Shown piece by piece: positions 46,277 to 54,947 of a stretch of 64,000 nt of DNA. Every line of letters begins with the position of its first letter. Position 1 is the first letter of the stretch. This DNA comes from Auricularia sp. M13 (Eukaryota > Basidiomycota > Agaricomycetes > Auriculariales > Auriculariaceae), in the NCBI GenBank assembly GCA_037042915.1, contig CM073194.1:2232001-2296000 (forward strand), in the 5' to 3' direction. The notes beneath the pieces were generated by a model. It was not told the origin of the DNA. It made no database searches and saw only the letters and a list, made by a program, of their open reading frames with translations. A program made the position numbers and the translations under genes.

Positions 46277-46284
46277 CTGCATAG

Positions 46285-46850
46285 TGTATGGCTCGATTCG
46301 CAGCCAACCTGCGAATCGAGTCCATACTAACGCTGAAGCGTTGGTACACCCGGAATCAGCCGGAGTGCGCGCACCAGCGCTTGAGCTCGTAGCCGCTAGC
46401 GCACGCTATCACGCGCATGCCTAGCAAATCCGTGATATTCTATTCGCGTCCAAGGGCTGACGAAGCGGTCCAGAGCGCTCGGAGCCGCTGCTTAGCTCCG
46501 TCGCTATAGCCGTTGCCAGACGCGGCCTCCGGATTGTACTCAATAACGGAACCGCTCCTCTTGTATCCTAGAGACCACAGTGACTCGGTATGACTCGTAT
46601 TAGATGCCGCACATGTATATAAGGCAAGGGAAAGCGACGAGAATGAGCAGAAGAGAGATTTCCCCCGAGCATCAGATTCACGAGCGGCTAGCGAGCCGAC
46701 TCCTCGTGTGTTTCAGACTTCGTTCTCATCATCCAGACGCGTCGATTGGCATCTTAAGATAGCATACGGCGGCCGAGTGTGAGAAATCGAGCAAGAGCGG
46801 TTCTATTTTGTCTCCCTGTCTCTCAGCATACGGACTTGCAAGCTCATACA
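46285..46850 (+). repeat. 5' LTR of element D
   Basis: 566 bp, TGTATGG...TCATACA. The first 43 bases form a long hairpin (46286-46327). TATA box TATATAA at 46616-46622. Confidence 0.94.
46616..46622 (+). promoter_or_regulatory. TATA box of element D LTR promoter
   Basis: TATATAAGG preceded by ACATG. The same box is in the 3' LTR near 54669. Confidence 0.7.
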
Positions 46851-46852
46851 TC

Positions 46853-46870
46853 TGGTGACCACCCGCTAGG
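46853..46870 (+). promoter_or_regulatory. Primer-binding site of element D (tRNA type)
   Basis: TGGTGACCACCCGCTAGG, two bases after the LTR. It starts with TGG, the complement of a tRNA CCA end, so this element is probably tRNA-primed, unlike element C. The tRNA was not identified. Confidence 0.6.
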
Positions 46871-47266
46871 GACATAGGCAAACTACCGCCGCCAAGTCCC
46901 CCCGGAGACGCTCTGGCAGAGAGAAAACGAGTTCCATTTCATCTCAGGCCAAAAGCACAGTCTCTCCGACCTCTTCCGCGTCGCAGAGGACAGACAGAAG
47001 CAAGACCGCTCCCAGTCGACGAAAACGCGACCGCGGGTCCGTCTCAGCAGCAAGAAGACGAGCCAGAATCTCCATTAACATCGTTAGCGGACGACGATCC
47101 ATTACTCGGCGAATTCGACGAGCATTGGGCGCAGCAGCTGTACCAGATCCACGACCGATCGGTTGAGCGCGCAAATCAGATCCTCGAGCAAGGAGGTGTA
47201 TTCCGCAGATCAGTATCAATTCCACAAAGACCAATTTCACCACCGAGACCTTCAACGCCAGCCACG

Positions 47267-47851
47267 ATGGCCGCCGTACCGATGCTCACGCCAAATGATC
47301 CAAAAGCGCCGAAGTTCAGCGGAAATGACTGCACGCTCGTACAATTCCTGGATGATTACGCGCGCATGGCAGATGCAGCGCTGCTCTCTCCTTACCAAAA
47401 ATGCTACAAACTCGCGGGGTATCTGTCTACCGAAGTACGCGAGGATCTCGAGCAGTATGAGGAATACAGCAGCCTTACGGAGGCGGGCGCAACGGCGGAT
47501 TCCTGGACAAAGTTGGTGGACCGCTTCTTCAAGGATTATCCCAACGCGAAGAGAGCGCGTGAAATTACGCGCGACGACTATAACAGCTTCGTAGCACGCA
47601 GTGAGACACGCGAAATCAGAACCGAAGAGGAATTGAACGCGTTCACGCGCGAGTTCAGGCGCTACACGACGCAACTCATTAAAAACAATCTGTTAGCCAA
47701 GCCAGACGTAGCGACAACGTTCTACCGCCTACTGCTGAAAGACATCGGCCATGACCTCACCTTGGCACTGAAACTGCAGAAGCCGAACTCTGACGATTTC
47801 GAGCTGGAAGAGATCGTCGACAGTGCGCGACGGCTCATCAAGAAAAGGTGA
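47267..47851 (+). CDS. Element D gag (capsid part)
   Basis: 194 codons from the first ATG: MAAVPMLTPNDPKAPKFSGN, then LVQFLDDYARMADAALLSPY and a capsid-like helical domain to DSARRLIKKR. The same frame is open for about 400 bp upstream (from about 46858) without any ATG yet reads as protein (LLGEFDEHWAQQLYQIHDRS). The real Gag may be longer. Ends at TGA 47849-47851; the frame resumes directly and joins the next ORF. Confidence 0.85.
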   Translation: MAAVPMLTPNDPKAPKFSGNDCTLVQFLDDYARMADAALLSPYQKCYKLAGYLSTEVREDLEQYEEYSSLTEAGATADSWTKLVDRFFKDYPNAKRAREITRDDYNSFVARSETREIRTEEELNAFTREFRRYTTQLIKNNLLAKPDVATTFYRLLLKDIGHDLTLALKLQKPNSDDFELEEIVDSARRLIKKR

Positions 47852-47890
47852 AATAACACAGGCATAGGGCTAGTCTTCGACCCTATAGTC

Positions 47891-49477
47891 ATGACCGCCA
47901 GCGTAGCCACCAGCAATCCCGCGCCCTTAGCTCAGATCATCAAACAAGAGGAACCGTTGTCAGCCAAGTACCAGGCACTCATGTCGCGGATTGAAGCATT
48001 GGAGAAAGAGCGCGATAATCTCTTGGGCAAAAAGAAAGCCTATACTGCGAACACGTCCCCCGGGGCGCAGCGGTCAAACGCGGCCAACGGTATCATATGT
48101 TACTATTGTCCAAAGGATGGGCACACCATGGGCCAATGCCCGCTGCTCGAGGAAGATCTCAGGAAAGGTCGATGCAAGCGGGACGAGAACAATCGTGTCG
48201 TATTCCCGGATGGATCACGCATTCCTTCAGGACCCGGCCGCAAGATGAGCGAGGCTGTAGCTGAGTGGAATAAGACCAAAGAAGAAGCAGCAGCCGTCCA
48301 CTCGGTCTCGGCGATGCTCGTCGAAGTCAGCGAGGAACTGGTTCAAGAAACCGCGCCAACACCGTACGCGCCTGTGTTCACAACGAGGGAAGCCGAAGAG
48401 TCGTGGTGGGCGTTCATGATGGACCAGGCAGCAGCGTATCAACAAGCGGCGGCAGGACGGCCAGGGTTGCGAAGCCAGAACAAGAAACCGAGTAGCGAGG
48501 TCCGAGAGAATCGCGATGGTGGCGAGAAACGTGACGCGCCTCCGCACATCGGCAAGGCGCCCGTGTCAAAAGAATTCGAACCTCGCGCAGCTCCAGCTCG
48601 ACGCGGGGAATCAGGGAAAATGGAGCCCGTACGGGCTGAGCAAGCCACAGATACCAAGGCGCAGTCAGCACCACAGGTGCCTGATCAGCGAGAGATCAGG
48701 GAAGGTACCGCTCGCGCGGCACCACACGCAGAAGCCGCACAGCCGGCGCGCCCGCAGTTCCGCGTGCAGGCGCCAGTCGAGCGGGACGGAATCGCCAACA
48801 AAATCGCTGAGCGCGCGATGGATGCGCAGGTCATCTGCACATTGGAAGAATTGGCCGCGATAGCACCGGAGCTCCAGCGTTACGTTCGAATGAAGGTCAC
48901 GCCGAAGCGTGTGAACGCGGGAAGCATGGAACAGGTCGAAAACGGAGTTGACGTCTGGAAGTATCGAGTCGTGGACGAACCTGAAGGCGGGTGGACTCCG
49001 GACACGGTTACAGCAAAAGTGTCGATGCCGCTCAGGTATCTGGACTGCCGGATCGGCAAGTTCGAGGTCGAGGGCGTGCTGGATGGAGGAGCACAGATTG
49101 TCATCATCTCGAAACGACTTTGGGTCGACCTGGAGCGTCCGATCGACAAGAATTTTCCCAGGATCACGTTGGAGGCGGCAAACAACTCGAAGGAGAAGAC
49201 GATTGGCCTATGTGCAAATCTGGAAGTAACGATTTTCGACATTACTTTTTACTTACAGGCGCACGTCGTGGAAGAAGCTCCGTTTGATCTGCTGCTCGGG
49301 CGTCCGTTTCTGTCTCTGGCGAAGGCCAAAGAGGAAGCCACAACTGACGGCGGGTCATTCATCACGTTGCATGATCCAAATTCGGACATTGCCCTTCGAG
49401 CACCTACAAAAGCACGAGCGAATCGTCGAGTAGGGCAGGCGGAGAAAGATGTAGCGAACCTTCAATCGCATTTTTGA
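47891..49477 (+). CDS. Element D zinc knuckle and protease
   Basis: Same frame as gag, separated only by the TGA at 47849-47851 and 13 sense codons. Coiled-coil stretch YQALMSRIEALEKERDNLLG, knuckle CYYCPKDGHTMGQC near 48098-48139, Glu/Ala-rich linker, then retropepsin EGVLDGGAQIVIISKRLW near 49073. A flap-to-helix part follows, DLLLGRPFLSLAKA. The active site reads D-G-G instead of D-S/T-G. Stop TGA 49475-49477 overlaps the pol ATG. Confidence 0.85.
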   Translation: MTASVATSNPAPLAQIIKQEEPLSAKYQALMSRIEALEKERDNLLGKKKAYTANTSPGAQRSNAANGIICYYCPKDGHTMGQCPLLEEDLRKGRCKRDENNRVVFPDGSRIPSGPGRKMSEAVAEWNKTKEEAAAVHSVSAMLVEVSEELVQETAPTPYAPVFTTREAEESWWAFMMDQAAAYQQAAAGRPGLRSQNKKPSSEVRENRDGGEKRDAPPHIGKAPVSKEFEPRAAPARRGESGKMEPVRAEQATDTKAQSAPQVPDQREIREGTARAAPHAEAAQPARPQFRVQAPVERDGIANKIAERAMDAQVICTLEELAAIAPELQRYVRMKVTPKRVNAGSMEQVENGVDVWKYRVVDEPEGGWTPDTVTAKVSMPLRYLDCRIGKFEVEGVLDGGAQIVIISKRLWVDLERPIDKNFPRITLEAANNSKEKTIGLCANLEVTIFDITFYLQAHVVEEAPFDLLLGRPFLSLAKAKEEATTDGGSFITLHDPNSDIALRAPTKARANRRVGQAEKDVANLQSHF

Positions 49478-52400
49478 TGTGGGAAGGGTCTGAACACTCA
49501 CCAACGGAATACCATTCGGCAGAGGCCCTTCCCGCATCAGTAGCCGCGACCATCAATTACAAGTGCCCCGCGGAGGGGGAGGAGGATGAGACCAAGGACA
49601 AGAACATGGCTGTTTTCAGTTTGAATCATGTACCCACGAACGACGAGATGAACACGCACCTGCGCCCAGCGCATTCGATTTACGAGCCGAGGACCGAGCG
49701 AGCCTCAATTGAGACAAGAGACCAAGCCGCGCGAGCGCTGCAGGATCAAGTAGAGCAGTTGCGACTGCTTTCTGCTGATCAGCAGGACGAGCTCATGCGC
49801 GAAAATACGGTCTGCCACGAGAAGGCAGCGACATACGATCAGTTTCTAGCTTGTCCAGCGGGACTAGCGGAATGGAATGCAGAAAAATTAGAAAAAGAAT
49901 GCGAGACGGATGATGAGTCGATAGAATTCAACGACGATGACTATATGCTATTCTACGTACGACCGGAGGATCGCGAGGAGGCGCGCTCCACCGGGGAGGT
50001 GTACGTGCAGGCTTACAGTGCTGGGCAAGTCGAACGAGCTGCAGCATCGTCAAGCCCTTGGATGCCGATTCCGGGCGAAGGGCCAATACGGATTCCGCCA
50101 GGTCCACGACCCAAGACTGGGCGTCCGACGAAGAAGTATAAGCCAGTGGCCATGAAGGTCAAGCCCACGTCGGAACGCTTACCCGAGGACTATCGCATGG
50201 TGAGAGAGCGACCCGCGGACTGCATGGAAGGACTCCCAGTGCTACCTCGGAATCCGCCGGAGTGGGTCTCGACGACCGAGCATCTGTCGGAGGAATGTAT
50301 GAGGGGGTTCAAGCTAGATGATAACGACTTCATCTTACCTGAAGAGGTCAAGCTTTTCAAATACATCATCGAGAGGCATCAAGCCGTGTTCGCCTGGGAA
50401 GAGAGTGAGCGACGACGGTTCAAAGAAACGTACTTCAAGCCGATAAAGTACCCCGTCGTGCCGCACGAACCATGGGCGGACAAGCACCATCCAATACCAC
50501 CAGGTGTACGGGACGAGCTGATCGAACTGCTCAAAAAGAAGATAGCAGCAGGAGTGTACGAACCGTCAAGTTCTTCCTATCGCTCTGGCTGGTTTTGCGT
50601 CATGAAGAAAGACGGGAAGTCCCTACGAATTGTGCACGACCTGCAGCGGCTCAATTCTGTGACAATTCGGGACGCGGGAACTCTACCTACACCAGACGAT
50701 TTCTCAGAATCTTGCGCGGGAAGAACGGTCATAGGCGCGCTTGACCAGTTCTCGTCGTACGATTTGCAGCTGGTAGACGCGGCCTCGAGGGACTACACGA
50801 CTTTCCAGACGCCGCTGGGGCCATACCGGCTGGTCTCATTACCTATGGGATGGACCAACTCAGTATCGATCCAGCACGGCAATCTCACCTTTATTCTTCA
50901 GCCAGAAATGCCCGAACACTGCGCGGCTTTCGTAGATGACATCTTCCCGCTCGGGCCGCGATCATTCTACTTAGATGGCGAAGGACGACATGAAACAATA
51001 CCCGGGAATACTGGAATCAGACGGTTTATCTGGGAATATGCAGAAACCCTCAACATGGTCATACAGCGACTGGATCACTCGGGCGCGTCAGTATCGGGCA
51101 AGAAAGCGCAGATAGCGGTACCGGCAACGGTGGTAACGGGGTATACGGTGTCATACGAGGGACGTACGCCGCTGCAAGAGAACGTCCAGCGAATCCTGGA
51201 CTGGCCGATGTGCGAAAACGTTCGCGACGTGCGAGGCTTTCTGGGAACAGCGGGCCTGTCACGACTTTGGATTAAGGATTTTGCGCAGAAGGCGAAGCCG
51301 CTCACCAATTTGGTCAAGAAAGAGACCGAGTTTGTGTTCGACGACGCGTGTCACATGGCTATGTATATCTTGAAGCTCGCGGTAGCCACTGCGCCGTGTC
51401 TCAGGCCAATCGATTATCGTTCCGGCCGCATAGTGATTCTGGCGGTCGATTCATCAGTAATCGGCGTCGGCTGCGTACTACTGCAACTGGGTGAAAAGAA
51501 AGAACAGTTCCCCGCACGATATCATAGCATTACCTGGAATGACAGAGAAGGACGGTACTCTCAGGCGAAACTCGAGCTATACGGCTTGTGGCGGGCTCTA
51601 CGAGCAATGCGATTATGGCTGTTCCAAGCACCTCAGCTCGTTGTGGAAGTCGATGCGAAGTACATCAAAGGGATGCTGAATAACCCGGACGTTCAGCCAA
51701 ATGCGACGATCAACCGGTGGATTGCAGGCATACTGCTTTTCCACTTCAAGCTGCGGCACGTACCTGGCGAACGGCACTCCGGCGCGGATGGCCTTTCTCG
51801 GTGCCGCGCGTCACCAAACGATCCCCAGGAGGAGGACAATGCTGAAGAATGGCTCGACCGTTATCTTGGGCTCTGGGTAGCGGGTATGCTGCAGCGCGTT
51901 GGTCAGACCCTGACGCCGGTGTCAAGCAATGGAGAACGAATCACGTACCCGCGAATCGAGTCCCCTCGCTTTGGCGCGCACCGCAAGTGCCCCACGACAG
52001 GTGTATTCGCGACGACTATGGCGACAAAGGACAATCGAGAAGTCCTCATAGATCCCCGAAAAGTGGTGATTGTTCCGCCGCGTGACGCGGGGCTGCTGGC
52101 CAAGGACGACGAACTGAGAGCAATTAGAGAGTATTTGACGGACTTCACTGCGCCAGACGTACCCGATAAAAAGCTTGTGGAATTCGTGCAAAAGACGAGG
52201 CGCTACTTTATCTTCGATGGGAAACTCATGAGGCGCGATGACCGGCATCAGCACCGAGTGGTGATCCTTGATCAGCGCCAGCGGGTACGAATACTGAGGG
52301 AAGCGCACGATGACCTGGGGCACAAAGGGCCATTCCCCACCCGTACTTTGATCAGAGAAAGGTTCTGGTGGCCAGGACTGGACGCGGATGTGCGGTGGTG

Positions 52401-53550
52401 GTGCGCCACTTGTCAACTCTGCCAGGAGAGACAGCGGACGACCATACGCATTCCGCCGGTGGTGGCACGAATAGCCACTCTGTTCCAGAAAGTCTACATC
52501 GATACCATGTTCATGCCAGTGTCAAACAAGAAGAAAGCGATAGTCCACGCACGATGCTCGCTGTCGTCTTATCCGGATTGCGTCTTGGCGCATGAAACGG
52601 GGGAAGCGATCGGCCGATTTATCCTTGAAGACATACTCTGCAGGTGGGGATATATCTCCGAGATCGTCTCAGACAACGGAACCCCATACGTAGCGGCCCT
52701 GGGTTGGTTAGCGAAGAAATACGGCATACGACATATTCGCATTTCTGGCTACAACTCACAGGCGAATGGTGCGATTGAAGCCAAACACTACAGCGTCAGG
52801 GAACCGATAGTCAAACTCTGCGACGACGATATATACAAGTGGCCGGAAGTGGCTCACCTGATCTTCTGGGCTGAACGAGTGACGGTGAGGCGGGCGACAG
52901 GCATGTCTCCTTATTATATGGTGCATGGCGTCGACCCGGTACTGCCGTTCGACCTCGCCGAAACAACATTCATCTCCCCGGCACTCCAGCCAGGGATCAC
53001 GATGGAAGAGTTGATTGCAATTCGCGCTCGCCAGCTAGAGCGGCGGCCGGAAGACCTCGCAGCCGCGCGCGAACGGGTTTACGCTGCACGCTTTGCGTCG
53101 CTACGGCAGTTCTGTGAGAAATACAAGAATTCAATCAAGAACTACGACTTCAAACCAGGGGAGTTGGTCATGGTGAAGAATACCGTCGCGGAAGCCGAGA
53201 TCGGGTGGAGGAAGTATGAAGACAAATACTTCGGTCCTCAGGTCGTCATTGCGCGGCACCACGGGGGATCCTATGTACTGGCAGAATTGGATGGATCCAT
53301 AGCGATGAGACGTTGCGCGGCGTTCAGAGTCGTGCCGTACTATCCGCGGCTGGCGGAGATATTCGATATACGCGGTATATTGGATGAAGGGTGCCAGCGC
53401 CTTCAGAAGATGGAGGAAGACGACATACAAGAAGGCCCGAAAGAAATGGATGACGAAGAAGCAAGTGACGGGGGATCAGGCGGAGAAGGCGCCGCAAACG
53501 AGTGGTACGAGGGCATCGACGACGTGGGGGAGGTGCCAGCGCGCGCCTAG
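49477..53550 (+). CDS. Element D pol: RT, RNase H, integrase (intact)
   Basis: 1357 codons from ATG 49477 without break. An N-terminal region of about 330 residues of unknown role leads to RT (SGWFCVMKKDGKSLRIVHDL; ALDQFSSYDLQLVDAASRDY; FQTPLGPYRLVSLPMGWTNS), with catalytic FVDD at 50929-50940. RNase H follows (ILAVDSSVIGVGCVLL, YSQAKLELYGLWRAL, VEVDAKYIKGML), then the integrase zinc domain HDDLGHKGPFPTRT...CQLCQ. The DDE core has VYIDTMFMP, IVSDNGTPY and YNSQANGAIEAKH. C-terminal GPQVVIARHHGGSYVLAEL; no chromodomain seen. Acidic tail. Stop TAG 53548-53550 shares CTAG with the antisense gene's stop. Confidence 0.95.
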   Translation: MWEGSEHSPTEYHSAEALPASVAATINYKCPAEGEEDETKDKNMAVFSLNHVPTNDEMNTHLRPAHSIYEPRTERASIETRDQAARALQDQVEQLRLLSADQQDELMRENTVCHEKAATYDQFLACPAGLAEWNAEKLEKECETDDESIEFNDDDYMLFYVRPEDREEARSTGEVYVQAYSAGQVERAAASSSPWMPIPGEGPIRIPPGPRPKTGRPTKKYKPVAMKVKPTSERLPEDYRMVRERPADCMEGLPVLPRNPPEWVSTTEHLSEECMRGFKLDDNDFILPEEVKLFKYIIERHQAVFAWEESERRRFKETYFKPIKYPVVPHEPWADKHHPIPPGVRDELIELLKKKIAAGVYEPSSSSYRSGWFCVMKKDGKSLRIVHDLQRLNSVTIRDAGTLPTPDDFSESCAGRTVIGALDQFSSYDLQLVDAASRDYTTFQTPLGPYRLVSLPMGWTNSVSIQHGNLTFILQPEMPEHCAAFVDDIFPLGPRSFYLDGEGRHETIPGNTGIRRFIWEYAETLNMVIQRLDHSGASVSGKKAQIAVPATVVTGYTVSYEGRTPLQENVQRILDWPMCENVRDVRGFLGTAGLSRLWIKDFAQKAKPLTNLVKKETEFVFDDACHMAMYILKLAVATAPCLRPIDYRSGRIVILAVDSSVIGVGCVLLQLGEKKEQFPARYHSITWNDREGRYSQAKLELYGLWRALRAMRLWLFQAPQLVVEVDAKYIKGMLNNPDVQPNATINRWIAGILLFHFKLRHVPGERHSGADGLSRCRASPNDPQEEDNAEEWLDRYLGLWVAGMLQRVGQTLTPVSSNGERITYPRIESPRFGAHRKCPTTGVFATTMATKDNREVLIDPRKVVIVPPRDAGLLAKDDELRAIREYLTDFTAPDVPDKKLVEFVQKTRRYFIFDGKLMRRDDRHQHRVVILDQRQRVRILREAHDDLGHKGPFPTRTLIRERFWWPGLDADVRWWCATCQLCQERQRTTIRIPPVVARIATLFQKVYIDTMFMPVSNKKKAIVHARCSLSSYPDCVLAHETGEAIGRFILEDILCRWGYISEIVSDNGTPYVAALGWLAKKYGIRHIRISGYNSQANGAIEAKHYSVREPIVKLCDDDIYKWPEVAHLIFWAERVTVRRATGMSPYYMVHGVDPVLPFDLAETTFISPALQPGITMEELIAIRARQLERRPEDLAAARERVYAARFASLRQFCEKYKNSIKNYDFKPGELVMVKNTVAEAEIGWRKYEDKYFGPQVVIARHHGGSYVLAELDGSIAMRRCAAFRVVPYYPRLAEIFDIRGILDEGCQRLQKMEEDDIQEGPKEMDDEEASDGGSGGEGAANEWYEGIDDVGEVPARA

Positions 53551-54208
53551 GAGTAGTGAGTGAGCCGCTCGGTGCTCTGCTCGACGAGATCGTATAACGC
53601 CTCGGCGAGGTGGATGAGCTGCCCGAGGGGATCGAGAAGGTCGCGGCCGCGCAAGTCGTGGATGAACTGCTCGCGAGCGGAGGGGACGTCACTGGCCAGG
53701 TTGCCGGACTGCTCGTCGATATAGGAGCCGCTCTCGAAGAGCGACGAGGCGCGAACGCGCGACTGATAGGCGCGGTGCTGGGCACCCTTCAGAATCTTGT
53801 ACGCGGTCGGGCACTCGCTGCATGCGCCGATCAGAGCCTGTGGGAATAGAAAAGAACAGATTGAGCTGGATCCAATCACGGAAAAAGGAGCGAGCGGGCG
53901 TACCAGAACAATATCAACGTCGTGAATATAGTCATAGAGAACCTGACCCTCGGGAGCCGCGATGTCGGGATGATAGCGAGGCTCGGCGCGCAGGACCTGG
54001 CGCGCGAGGTGCTCGATCGCCTCGATTACTGAAAATCCGTCCTGGATACGAGGGAAGAGTTCCCAGGCGCCGTATGGCCCGCGCAGGCTTGACGACGAAT
54101 GAACCTTCCGCACAGCAAGCGCGATCTCGTACAATTGCGCCTACGAAATTGTCGGCGCATCGTCGCTGGCGCTGAGAAATCACTCACGGTGAGCGAAGAG
54201 AAGGCCAT
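53547..54208 (-). CDS. Antisense, intron-containing accessory gene of element D
   Basis: Three minus-strand exons: 54208-54188, 54140-53904, 53837-53547; 182 codons plus stop. Introns of 47 bp (GTGAGT...TCGTAG) and 66 bp (GTACGC...CCACAG), both phase 0. The second intron is open and a multiple of three, so only the splice signals reveal it. The protein starts MAFSSLTAQLYEIALAVRKV and contains EAIEHLARQVLRAEPRYHPD, GACSECPTAYKILKGAQHRA and LGQLIHLAEALYDLVEQSTE, so it is probably mostly helical. No family recognised and no clear similarity to the element C antisense protein. It has its own TATA and CCAAT boxes before the 3' LTR and converges on pol with overlapping stop codons. Confidence 0.78.
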
Positions 54209-54287
54209 GTCAAACGGCTAGCAAGTTGTCAATGTTTGGGAAAAGGATGGATGTGTCAAGATGCTGGTTTCGAGCCGGCAACTGCGT

Positions 54288-54304
54288 CTTTATAGGGCGA
54301 TTGG
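54288..54304 (-). promoter_or_regulatory. TATA and CCAAT boxes of the element D antisense gene
   Basis: On the minus strand CCAAT (54304-54300) is followed at once by CGCC and TATAAAG (54294-54288), 80 bp upstream of the ATG. Pyrimidine-rich sequence CCATCCTTTTCCC lies between. All of it lies between the gene and the 3' LTR, so it does not depend on LTR sequence. Confidence 0.6.
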
Positions 54305-54338
54305 CCAGGGACGGCCAATTTTTCAAGTGCCCCGCGGG

Positions 54339-54903
54339 TGTATGGCTCGATTCGCAGCCAACCTGCGAATCGAGTCCATACTAACGCTGAAGCGTTGGTA
54401 CACCCGGAATCAGCCGGAGTGCGCGCACCAGCGCTTGAGCTCGTAGCCGCTAGCGCACGCTATCACGCGCATGCCTAGCAAATCCGTGATATTCTATTCG
54501 CGTCCAAGGGCTGACGAAGCGGTCCAGAGCGCTCGGAGCCGCTGCTTAGCTCCGTCGCTATAGCCGTTGCCAGACGCGGCCTCCGGATTGTACTCAATAA
54601 CGGAACCGCTCCTCTTGTATCCTAGAGACCACAGTGACTCGGTATGACTCGTATTAGATGCCGCACATGTATATAAGGCAAGGGAAAGTGACGAGATGAG
54701 CAGAAGAGAGATTTCCCCCGAGCATCGGATTCACGAGCGGCTAGCGAGCCGACTCCTCGTGTGTTTCAGACTTCGTTCTCATCATCCAGACGCGTCGATT
54801 GGCATCTTAAGATAGCATACGGCGGCCGAGTGTGAGAAATCGAGCAAGAGCGGTTCTATTTTGTCTCCCTGTCTCTCAGCATACGGACTTGCAAGCTCAT
54901 ACA
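54339..54903 (+). repeat. 3' LTR of element D
   Basis: 565 bp, same ends as the 5' LTR. Differences seen: GACGAGATGAG for GACGAGAATGAG, T for C just before it, and CATCGG for CATCAG. The base stretch just upstream (CCCCGCGGG) is a poor polypurine tract. Confidence 0.94.
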
Positions 54904-54947
54904 ATAGCTGGGTAAGCTTTTAGAGAAATAAAGGTTCACTTCCTTAC

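Follow-up and report, generated by a model that had tools for sequence, protein, structure and literature searches.

Does an open frame that runs against pol at the 3′ end of a fungal retrotransposon represent a gene, and, if so, what could it do for the element that carries it? The question is raised by element D, a long terminal repeat (LTR) element in the window (the whole 64,000-nucleotide stretch of Auricularia sp. M13 DNA analysed here). The original prediction, made from a single copy, described a spliced antisense accessory gene with its own promoter and with a stop codon shared with pol.

Element D occupies positions 46285-54903 of the window on the plus strand. Its 5′ LTR (46285..46850) and 3′ LTR (54339..54903) are 99.5% identical and are flanked by the 4-bp target repeat ATAG at 46281-46284 and 54904-54907. 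The gag part (46859..47851) ends with an in-frame TGA (47849-47851), the remaining gag and the aspartic protease follow at 47852..49477 with a CX2CX4HX4C knuckle at 48098-48139, and pol extends over 49375..53550, with its stop at 53548-53550 and Pfam matches for RNase H and the integrase zinc-binding domain (all on the plus strand). The TG..CA LTR ends, the target repeat, the protease, RNase H and integrase together identify D as a Ty3/gypsy LTR retrotransposon. Pfam called no reverse transcriptase domain in the pol of D at E 0.1, and PF00078 was present in many pol homologues among the matches listed in the protein-set search described below. The gag of D and that of the related copy C1 have one in-frame stop each, at different positions (47849-47851 in the window; 2415-2417 in L007). 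Two further LTR-like direct repeat pairs are present in the window (6228-6953/14129-14854, 99.7%; 32618-33064/43883-44329, 100%).

On the minus strand, the predicted three exons and two phase-0 introns were all found where they had been placed: a small first exon of 21 nt (54208-54188), a first intron of 47 nt (54187-54141, GTGAGT...TAG), an exon of 237 nt (53904..54140), an intron of 66 nt (53838..53903, GTACGC...CAG) and a last exon of 291 nt (53547..53837), which splice into a frame of 182 codons plus TAG. The CTAG at 53547-53550 does double as the stop of pol on the plus strand and of the antisense frame on the minus strand. An open frame alone is no better than chance, because 42 frames of at least 100 aa, counted from stop to stop, overlap the 18-kb stretch examined; the evidence beyond chance for a putative antisense gene is comparative.

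Intact relatives and the window copy

DNA and protein searches of the genome (52 Mb, 14 contigs) identified three other copies of the same group (group I), here termed C5a (L006), C1 (L007) and C5b (L018). Intact antisense genes of four exons are predicted on the minus strand of C5a, at 9287-8929, 8861-8636, 8588-8352 and 8296-8006 of L006 (370 aa), and of C5b, at 8936-8635, 8578-8365, 8322-8083 and 8028-7738 of L018 (348 aa). These models rank first in the spliced-path search, tied with alternative acceptors, among 4 open spliced paths for C5a and 100 for C5b. The antisense gene of C1 has the same four-exon layout with a single frameshift near the C terminus, and the intron phases are 2, 0 and 0 in all three copies; besides the frameshift, which lies in exon 4, C1 differs from C5a by 3-nt length differences in exons 1 and 2. 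Over most of its length, C1, a full element with 99.8% identical LTRs, is 76% identical to D. As its antisense gene is frameshifted despite such similar LTRs, an individual copy may do without the gene or rely on supply in trans. The LTR pair of C5a is 99.7% identical, and the C5a and C5b elements contain long insertions inside pol without similarity to D.

Alignment with these copies alters the reading of the window gene. Its last exon, second intron and middle exon are homologous to exon 4, the phase-0 intron 3 and exon 3 of the intact relatives, respectively. The segment upstream of them (54141..54208, minus strand) is a remnant, in which the ATG (54208-54206) and the first codons of the true exon 1 are fused to the end of the true intron 2; the predicted first exon and first intron are both part of it. 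Since the distance from the ATG to exon 3 is 68 nt in the window versus 699 nt in C5a and 692 nt in C1, about 625-630 bp are missing from the window, namely most of exon 1 including a CCHC-like motif, intron 1, exon 2 and most of intron 2. The alignment of C1 with D jumps from 54143 to 54192 of the window, while C1 continues for about 675 bp in between, and the extra DNA at this point, also found in C5a and C5b, holds the missing front of the gene. The first window intron takes its donor from within what was exon 1 and its acceptor from intron 2. The upstream exons are present in C5b and in the more distant families, and a deletion in the window lineage would therefore be the simplest reading.

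The first exon and first donor of the original prediction would be products of this deletion, and the 182-aa product is not supported as the normal protein, the intact relatives having 348 and 370 residues; any window product would be limited to the C-terminal region, with the front half and its motif gone. The 66-nt window intron stays open if retained, whereas its homologue in C5a measures 55 nt, so that retention there would shift the frame. In the three relatives, 23-36 nt separate the stop of pol from that of the antisense gene, and by this comparison the shared CTAG is private to the window copy. On these comparative grounds, the window copy is a truncated member of a real, conserved antisense gene family.

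The wider family and constraint on its proteins

The 3 kb downstream of pol were read in 11 more distant elements, and in nine of them an antisense gene was found at the corresponding place. The pol stretches beside the gene in these nine are 50-62% identical to that of D, and the genes form three subtypes, namely MST (L042 and L049; intron phases 1, 2, 0), MDP (L043, L044, L045 and L052; last introns in phases 2, 0, 0) and METP (L046, L048 and L051; last introns likewise 2, 0, 0). In L047, whose pol is 56% identical, neither a family match nor the palindrome described below was found; L050 has no palindrome either and carries a different antisense frame. Thirteen loci were read in all: nine give complete GT-AG models, two require a GC-AG donor, one is frameshifted and one, the window copy, is truncated, i.e. 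the frame has not been broken at random in the other copies. The two loci with non-standard donors (L045 and L052) were left out of the complete models, as the path search gave none with the required peptides; in both, GCGAGT in place of a GT donor was seen by eye, which suggests a GC-AG last intron. The model for L044 is ambiguous at intron 1, where the donor is a weak GTGCAC, and its top-scored version loses the last cysteine.

Genome-wide, the family comprises at least 17 loci (at least 4 in group I, 5 METP, 5 MDP and 3 MST), of which 16 lie opposite a listed pol and one, the MST locus C11:1064072, is without a listed pol in that orientation. This distribution supports the proposal of an element-borne antisense accessory gene with introns on the antisense strand. 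A further candidate at C11:2117451 (L020; protein match with E 0.6) was dropped, as it has no DNA similarity to D. Profile comparison linked four of the six subtype pairs clearly (MST-METP, E 1.4e-14; MDP-MST, 1.8e-8; MDP-METP, 5.1e-8; MST-group I, 9.4e-8), and the matches of MDP to group I (E 0.0012, probability 19.2%) and of METP to group I (E 0.002, probability 13.8%; 0.025 with the roles swapped) were weak. Sixty column shuffles reached the score of none of the six pairs, and a pooled MST and MDP set agrees.

Substitution patterns, estimated as dN/dS by a simple counting method, point to constraint on the protein. For exons 3 and 4, dN/dS was 0.12 between the window and C5a, 0.09 between the window and C1 and 0.05 between C5a and C1; for exons 1 and 2 it was 0.17 between C5a and C1, and within the other subtypes it ranged from 0.10 to 0.17 (five pairs). 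For comparison, pol and gag gave 0.042 and 0.059 between the window and C1. The C5b pairs are near saturation, with exon 3 values of 0.20 (window) and 0.25 (C5a) and a saturated C1 pair, and with exon 4 values of about 0.52 (window) and 0.47 (C5a), also near saturation; constraint on the last exon is much weaker at this distance. Mismatches in exon 3 between the window and C5a number 9, 9 and 42 by codon position. In the five alternative frames of the exons, pN/pS exceeded 1 in 12 of 15 tests, and the three lower values (0.32, 0.34 and 0.68) belong to a single sense-strand frame with three to seven stops per copy. Indels are confined to introns, with gap-free exons, in four aligned pairs (L042/L049 and three METP pairs). 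The exons of L042 and L049 are 68-81% identical and their introns 46-53%, with 30 gap columns, and in the METP pairs introns are 69-96% and exons 87-97% identical, most introns being about as similar as the exons. These patterns indicate that purifying selection acts on the antisense protein, with dN/dS of 0.05-0.17 in unsaturated pairs. The tight tail-to-tail packing of pol and antisense gene had been read as a sign of long co-evolution and not of chance capture; the selection values and the 17 loci favour the co-evolution, and the sharing of the stop, peculiar to one copy, lends it no support.

A CX2C...H...C motif near the front of the intact proteins was found in eight of ten aligned sequences, the two without it being the window copy, owing to the deletion, and the top-scored L044 model. 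The spacing CX2CX4HX4C is exact only in METP (L046, L048 and L051); it differs in the other subtypes, and the motif has no match to the Pfam zf-CCHC family. The C-terminal region has a common Y.D motif and a charged end (DRRT, DKRS, DRST, ERLT or ERRK). The antisense protein gave no Pfam match above the cut-off, the sub-threshold matches being in our reading chance, and a PDB search gave no match. In a set of 5.8 billion proteins, no relative was detected at E ≤10, either with the truncated query or with a three-protein alignment scored on the 8000 candidates sharing most words; pol gave 1149 matches at E 1e-20 in the same set. Because many entries of this set are metagenomic and probably unspliced predictions, the missing protein relatives are weak evidence. 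The named pol relatives among the matches listed come from Rhodofomes, Pleurotus, Leucocoprinus and Candolleomyces, all of which are Agaricomycetes. In IMG/VR, 39 pattern matches included no relative of the antisense profile, and pol had no pattern match; in GTDB contigs, seven pattern matches for pol included no relative.

The palindrome and promoter-like motifs

A TATAA at 54290-54294 (minus strand), 86 nt upstream of the ATG, and a CCAAT at 54300-54304 both lie outside the 3′ LTR (first position 54339), as had been predicted. A TATA motif 65-95 nt upstream of the ATG was also found throughout group I (TATAA in three of four copies, i.e. the window, C5a and C5b; TTAATAAAAA in C1) and in both MST genes. 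METP genes have ATAAAA at -31/-32 (3/3), and no TATA was found in MDP by the patterns searched (0/4 genes examined). A promoter of its own outside the LTR is possible in D and its close relatives, as judged from sequence motifs only. The CCAAT is part of an arm of a conserved palindrome, TGGCC-GTCCCT-GGCCA, at 54302..54317 (minus strand). The palindrome varies by paired changes; CCAAT is not supported as a conserved box, and its conserved pairing with TATA was rejected.

The palindrome, in the form TGGCC-GTCCNN-GGCCA, occurs on the antisense strand at the internal side of the 3′ LTR at all 13 loci read, with TGGTC...GACCA in C5a. Pairing is kept in 54 of 54 cells across nine palindrome sequences, and seven cells are changed on both sides. 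The covariation score was reached by none of 500 shuffles, with only two of the six pairs varying and with two of five covariation measures unremarkable (double-change pairs, 50/500; further pair types, 363/500). A strict pattern has 10 occurrences in the genome, all at antisense genes, and none for the reversed control; a degenerate pattern has 20 occurrences versus 2 for the control, one at each of the 17 antisense genes and three elsewhere. A still laxer pattern gave one stray match inside L040.

The remaining three occurrences differ in their surroundings. No match of note was found near the palindrome of L053. Those of L054 and L055 adjoin LTR-like DNA, with no family gene within 3 kb (best pol match, E 0.005), and these two loci, which are about 90-98% alike in aligned blocks, are possibly non-autonomous derivatives. 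A gene-free palindrome at two loci weakens the idea of a pure promoter element. Overall, a promoter or autoregulatory site is the favoured interpretation, and a replication or packaging site would also be compatible.

Proposed role, alternatives and known systems

The genome comparison demonstrates a gene family, its predicted exon–intron layout, its position, the purifying selection and the association with the palindrome. Our preferred reading of these, to which we assign a probability of roughly 0.62, is that the window holds a decayed copy, and that the Ty3-type lineage carries an antisense spliced gene for a nucleic-acid-binding protein regulating its own element in trans. The gene would be transcribed toward pol from a promoter beside the 3′ LTR, and the spliceosome would remove its introns. 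These need not be lost on transposition, because the reverse-transcribed sense RNA would read them as CT...AC. The protein may bind nucleic acid via the CCHC-like motif and may target either the transcription or the genomic RNA of its own element, with the palindrome as a candidate cis site. A bolder version holds that one antisense module has been kept across families with pol stretches 50-62% identical, composed of a multi-exon zinc-knuckle gene and a co-varying 5′ palindrome recognised by its own protein; we offer it tentatively and regard it as rather doubtful. If it were true, antisense placement would let a reverse-transcribing element keep spliceosomal introns, and nuclear splicing of the antisense mRNA could separate expression of the regulator from the genomic RNA.

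The protein could instead act as another nucleocapsid-like chaperone that is packaged together with the element RNA, or assist the nuclear export of that RNA, and not regulate transcription. Its CCHC-like motifs resemble the CX2CX4HX4C of Gag (48098-48139) in style; however, Pfam finds no Gag or capsid similarity, a protein made from an antisense transcript would not be coupled to Gag, and we consider such a role unlikely. Alternatively, the 182-codon window version might be a functional short form, e.g. a dominant-negative regulator, given LTRs that are 99.5% identical and no damage to the frame, the splice sites or the TATA/palindrome region. After a recent deletion the frame would still be intact in any case, the genome searches turned up only this one copy of the short form, and a functional short form seems very unlikely. 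Still less probable is that the antisense RNA, and not the protein, matters, with transcription into pol leading to double-stranded RNA and silencing of the element. The tail-to-tail layout would fit, and such silencing is discussed for the plant antisense frames known as aORF-3R in the excerpted text of a review (PMC7264820). It is the amino acids that are under selection, however (dN/dS 0.05-0.17 in unsaturated pairs; 42 of 60 mismatches in third positions in exon 3 between the window and C5a), and the RNA is disfavoured as the whole story. Recent capture of a host gene by one element, as introns of the spliceosomal type might suggest, is scarcely credible for a family that spans elements with pol stretches 50-62% identical to that of D and has 16 of its 17 loci in a common position opposite a listed pol, the seventeenth having the element's palindrome.

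Some known systems resemble this gene family in part. Like aORF-3R, the family has coding sequence antisense to the element between pol and the 3′ LTR and is conserved across copies, here with selection on the protein. Examples in plants include maize Grande gene23, rice RIRE2, the antisense TRP28 genes of Silene Retand elements and PvRetro13, and an upstream promoter and nuclear localisation have been reported for the Grande gene (PMC7264820, PMC11963269). The excerpts of these sources do not describe introns or a zinc knuckle for the plant genes, which are likewise antisense between pol and the 3′ LTR of LTR retrotransposons and have no sequence relation that we found to the window family. 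The TRP28 domain (PF04195) had no Pfam match in the antisense proteins.

Botrytis belongs to a different fungal phylum from the host of the window. The Boty element of Botrytis cinerea is described, in the excerpted text, as having an additional antisense gene, brtn (PMC7264820, PMC8365987). The likeness, an additional antisense gene in a fungal LTR retrotransposon, is one of description only. HBZ of HTLV-1 is a bZIP protein. Its gene is likewise antisense and regulatory and sits at the 3′ end of a retroelement, and it differs from the window gene in having an unrelated protein and host and an antisense promoter that, according to the excerpted text, lies inside the 3′ LTR (PMC7264820). In Mytilus chilensis, MchSLE-1 has an antisense mRNA with an ORF possibly expressed as a fusion protein, and the excerpt describes no conserved spliced gene family (PMC10974842). 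Among the titles and abstract openings listed by the literature searches, none describes such a spliced family in mushroom-forming fungi, and as far as we searched the family is of a known kind, an antisense accessory gene, in an undescribed variant with predicted introns.

Where there was a guess from a single copy, the comparison gives a gene family that is conserved and under selection, with intact members whose splice junctions are predicted, and the role of LTR-retrotransposon antisense genes can now be tested in a fungus. A further suggestion is that introns can persist for long periods in LTR elements; gene finders may annotate such antisense genes as orphan host genes. A different antisense frame, without a Pfam match, is found in sister elements (L050, C3:2862000-2864999), whose C-terminal pol stretches are roughly 37-50% identical to that of D; a 158-residue query of this frame identified 13 loci, 12 of them opposite a listed pol.
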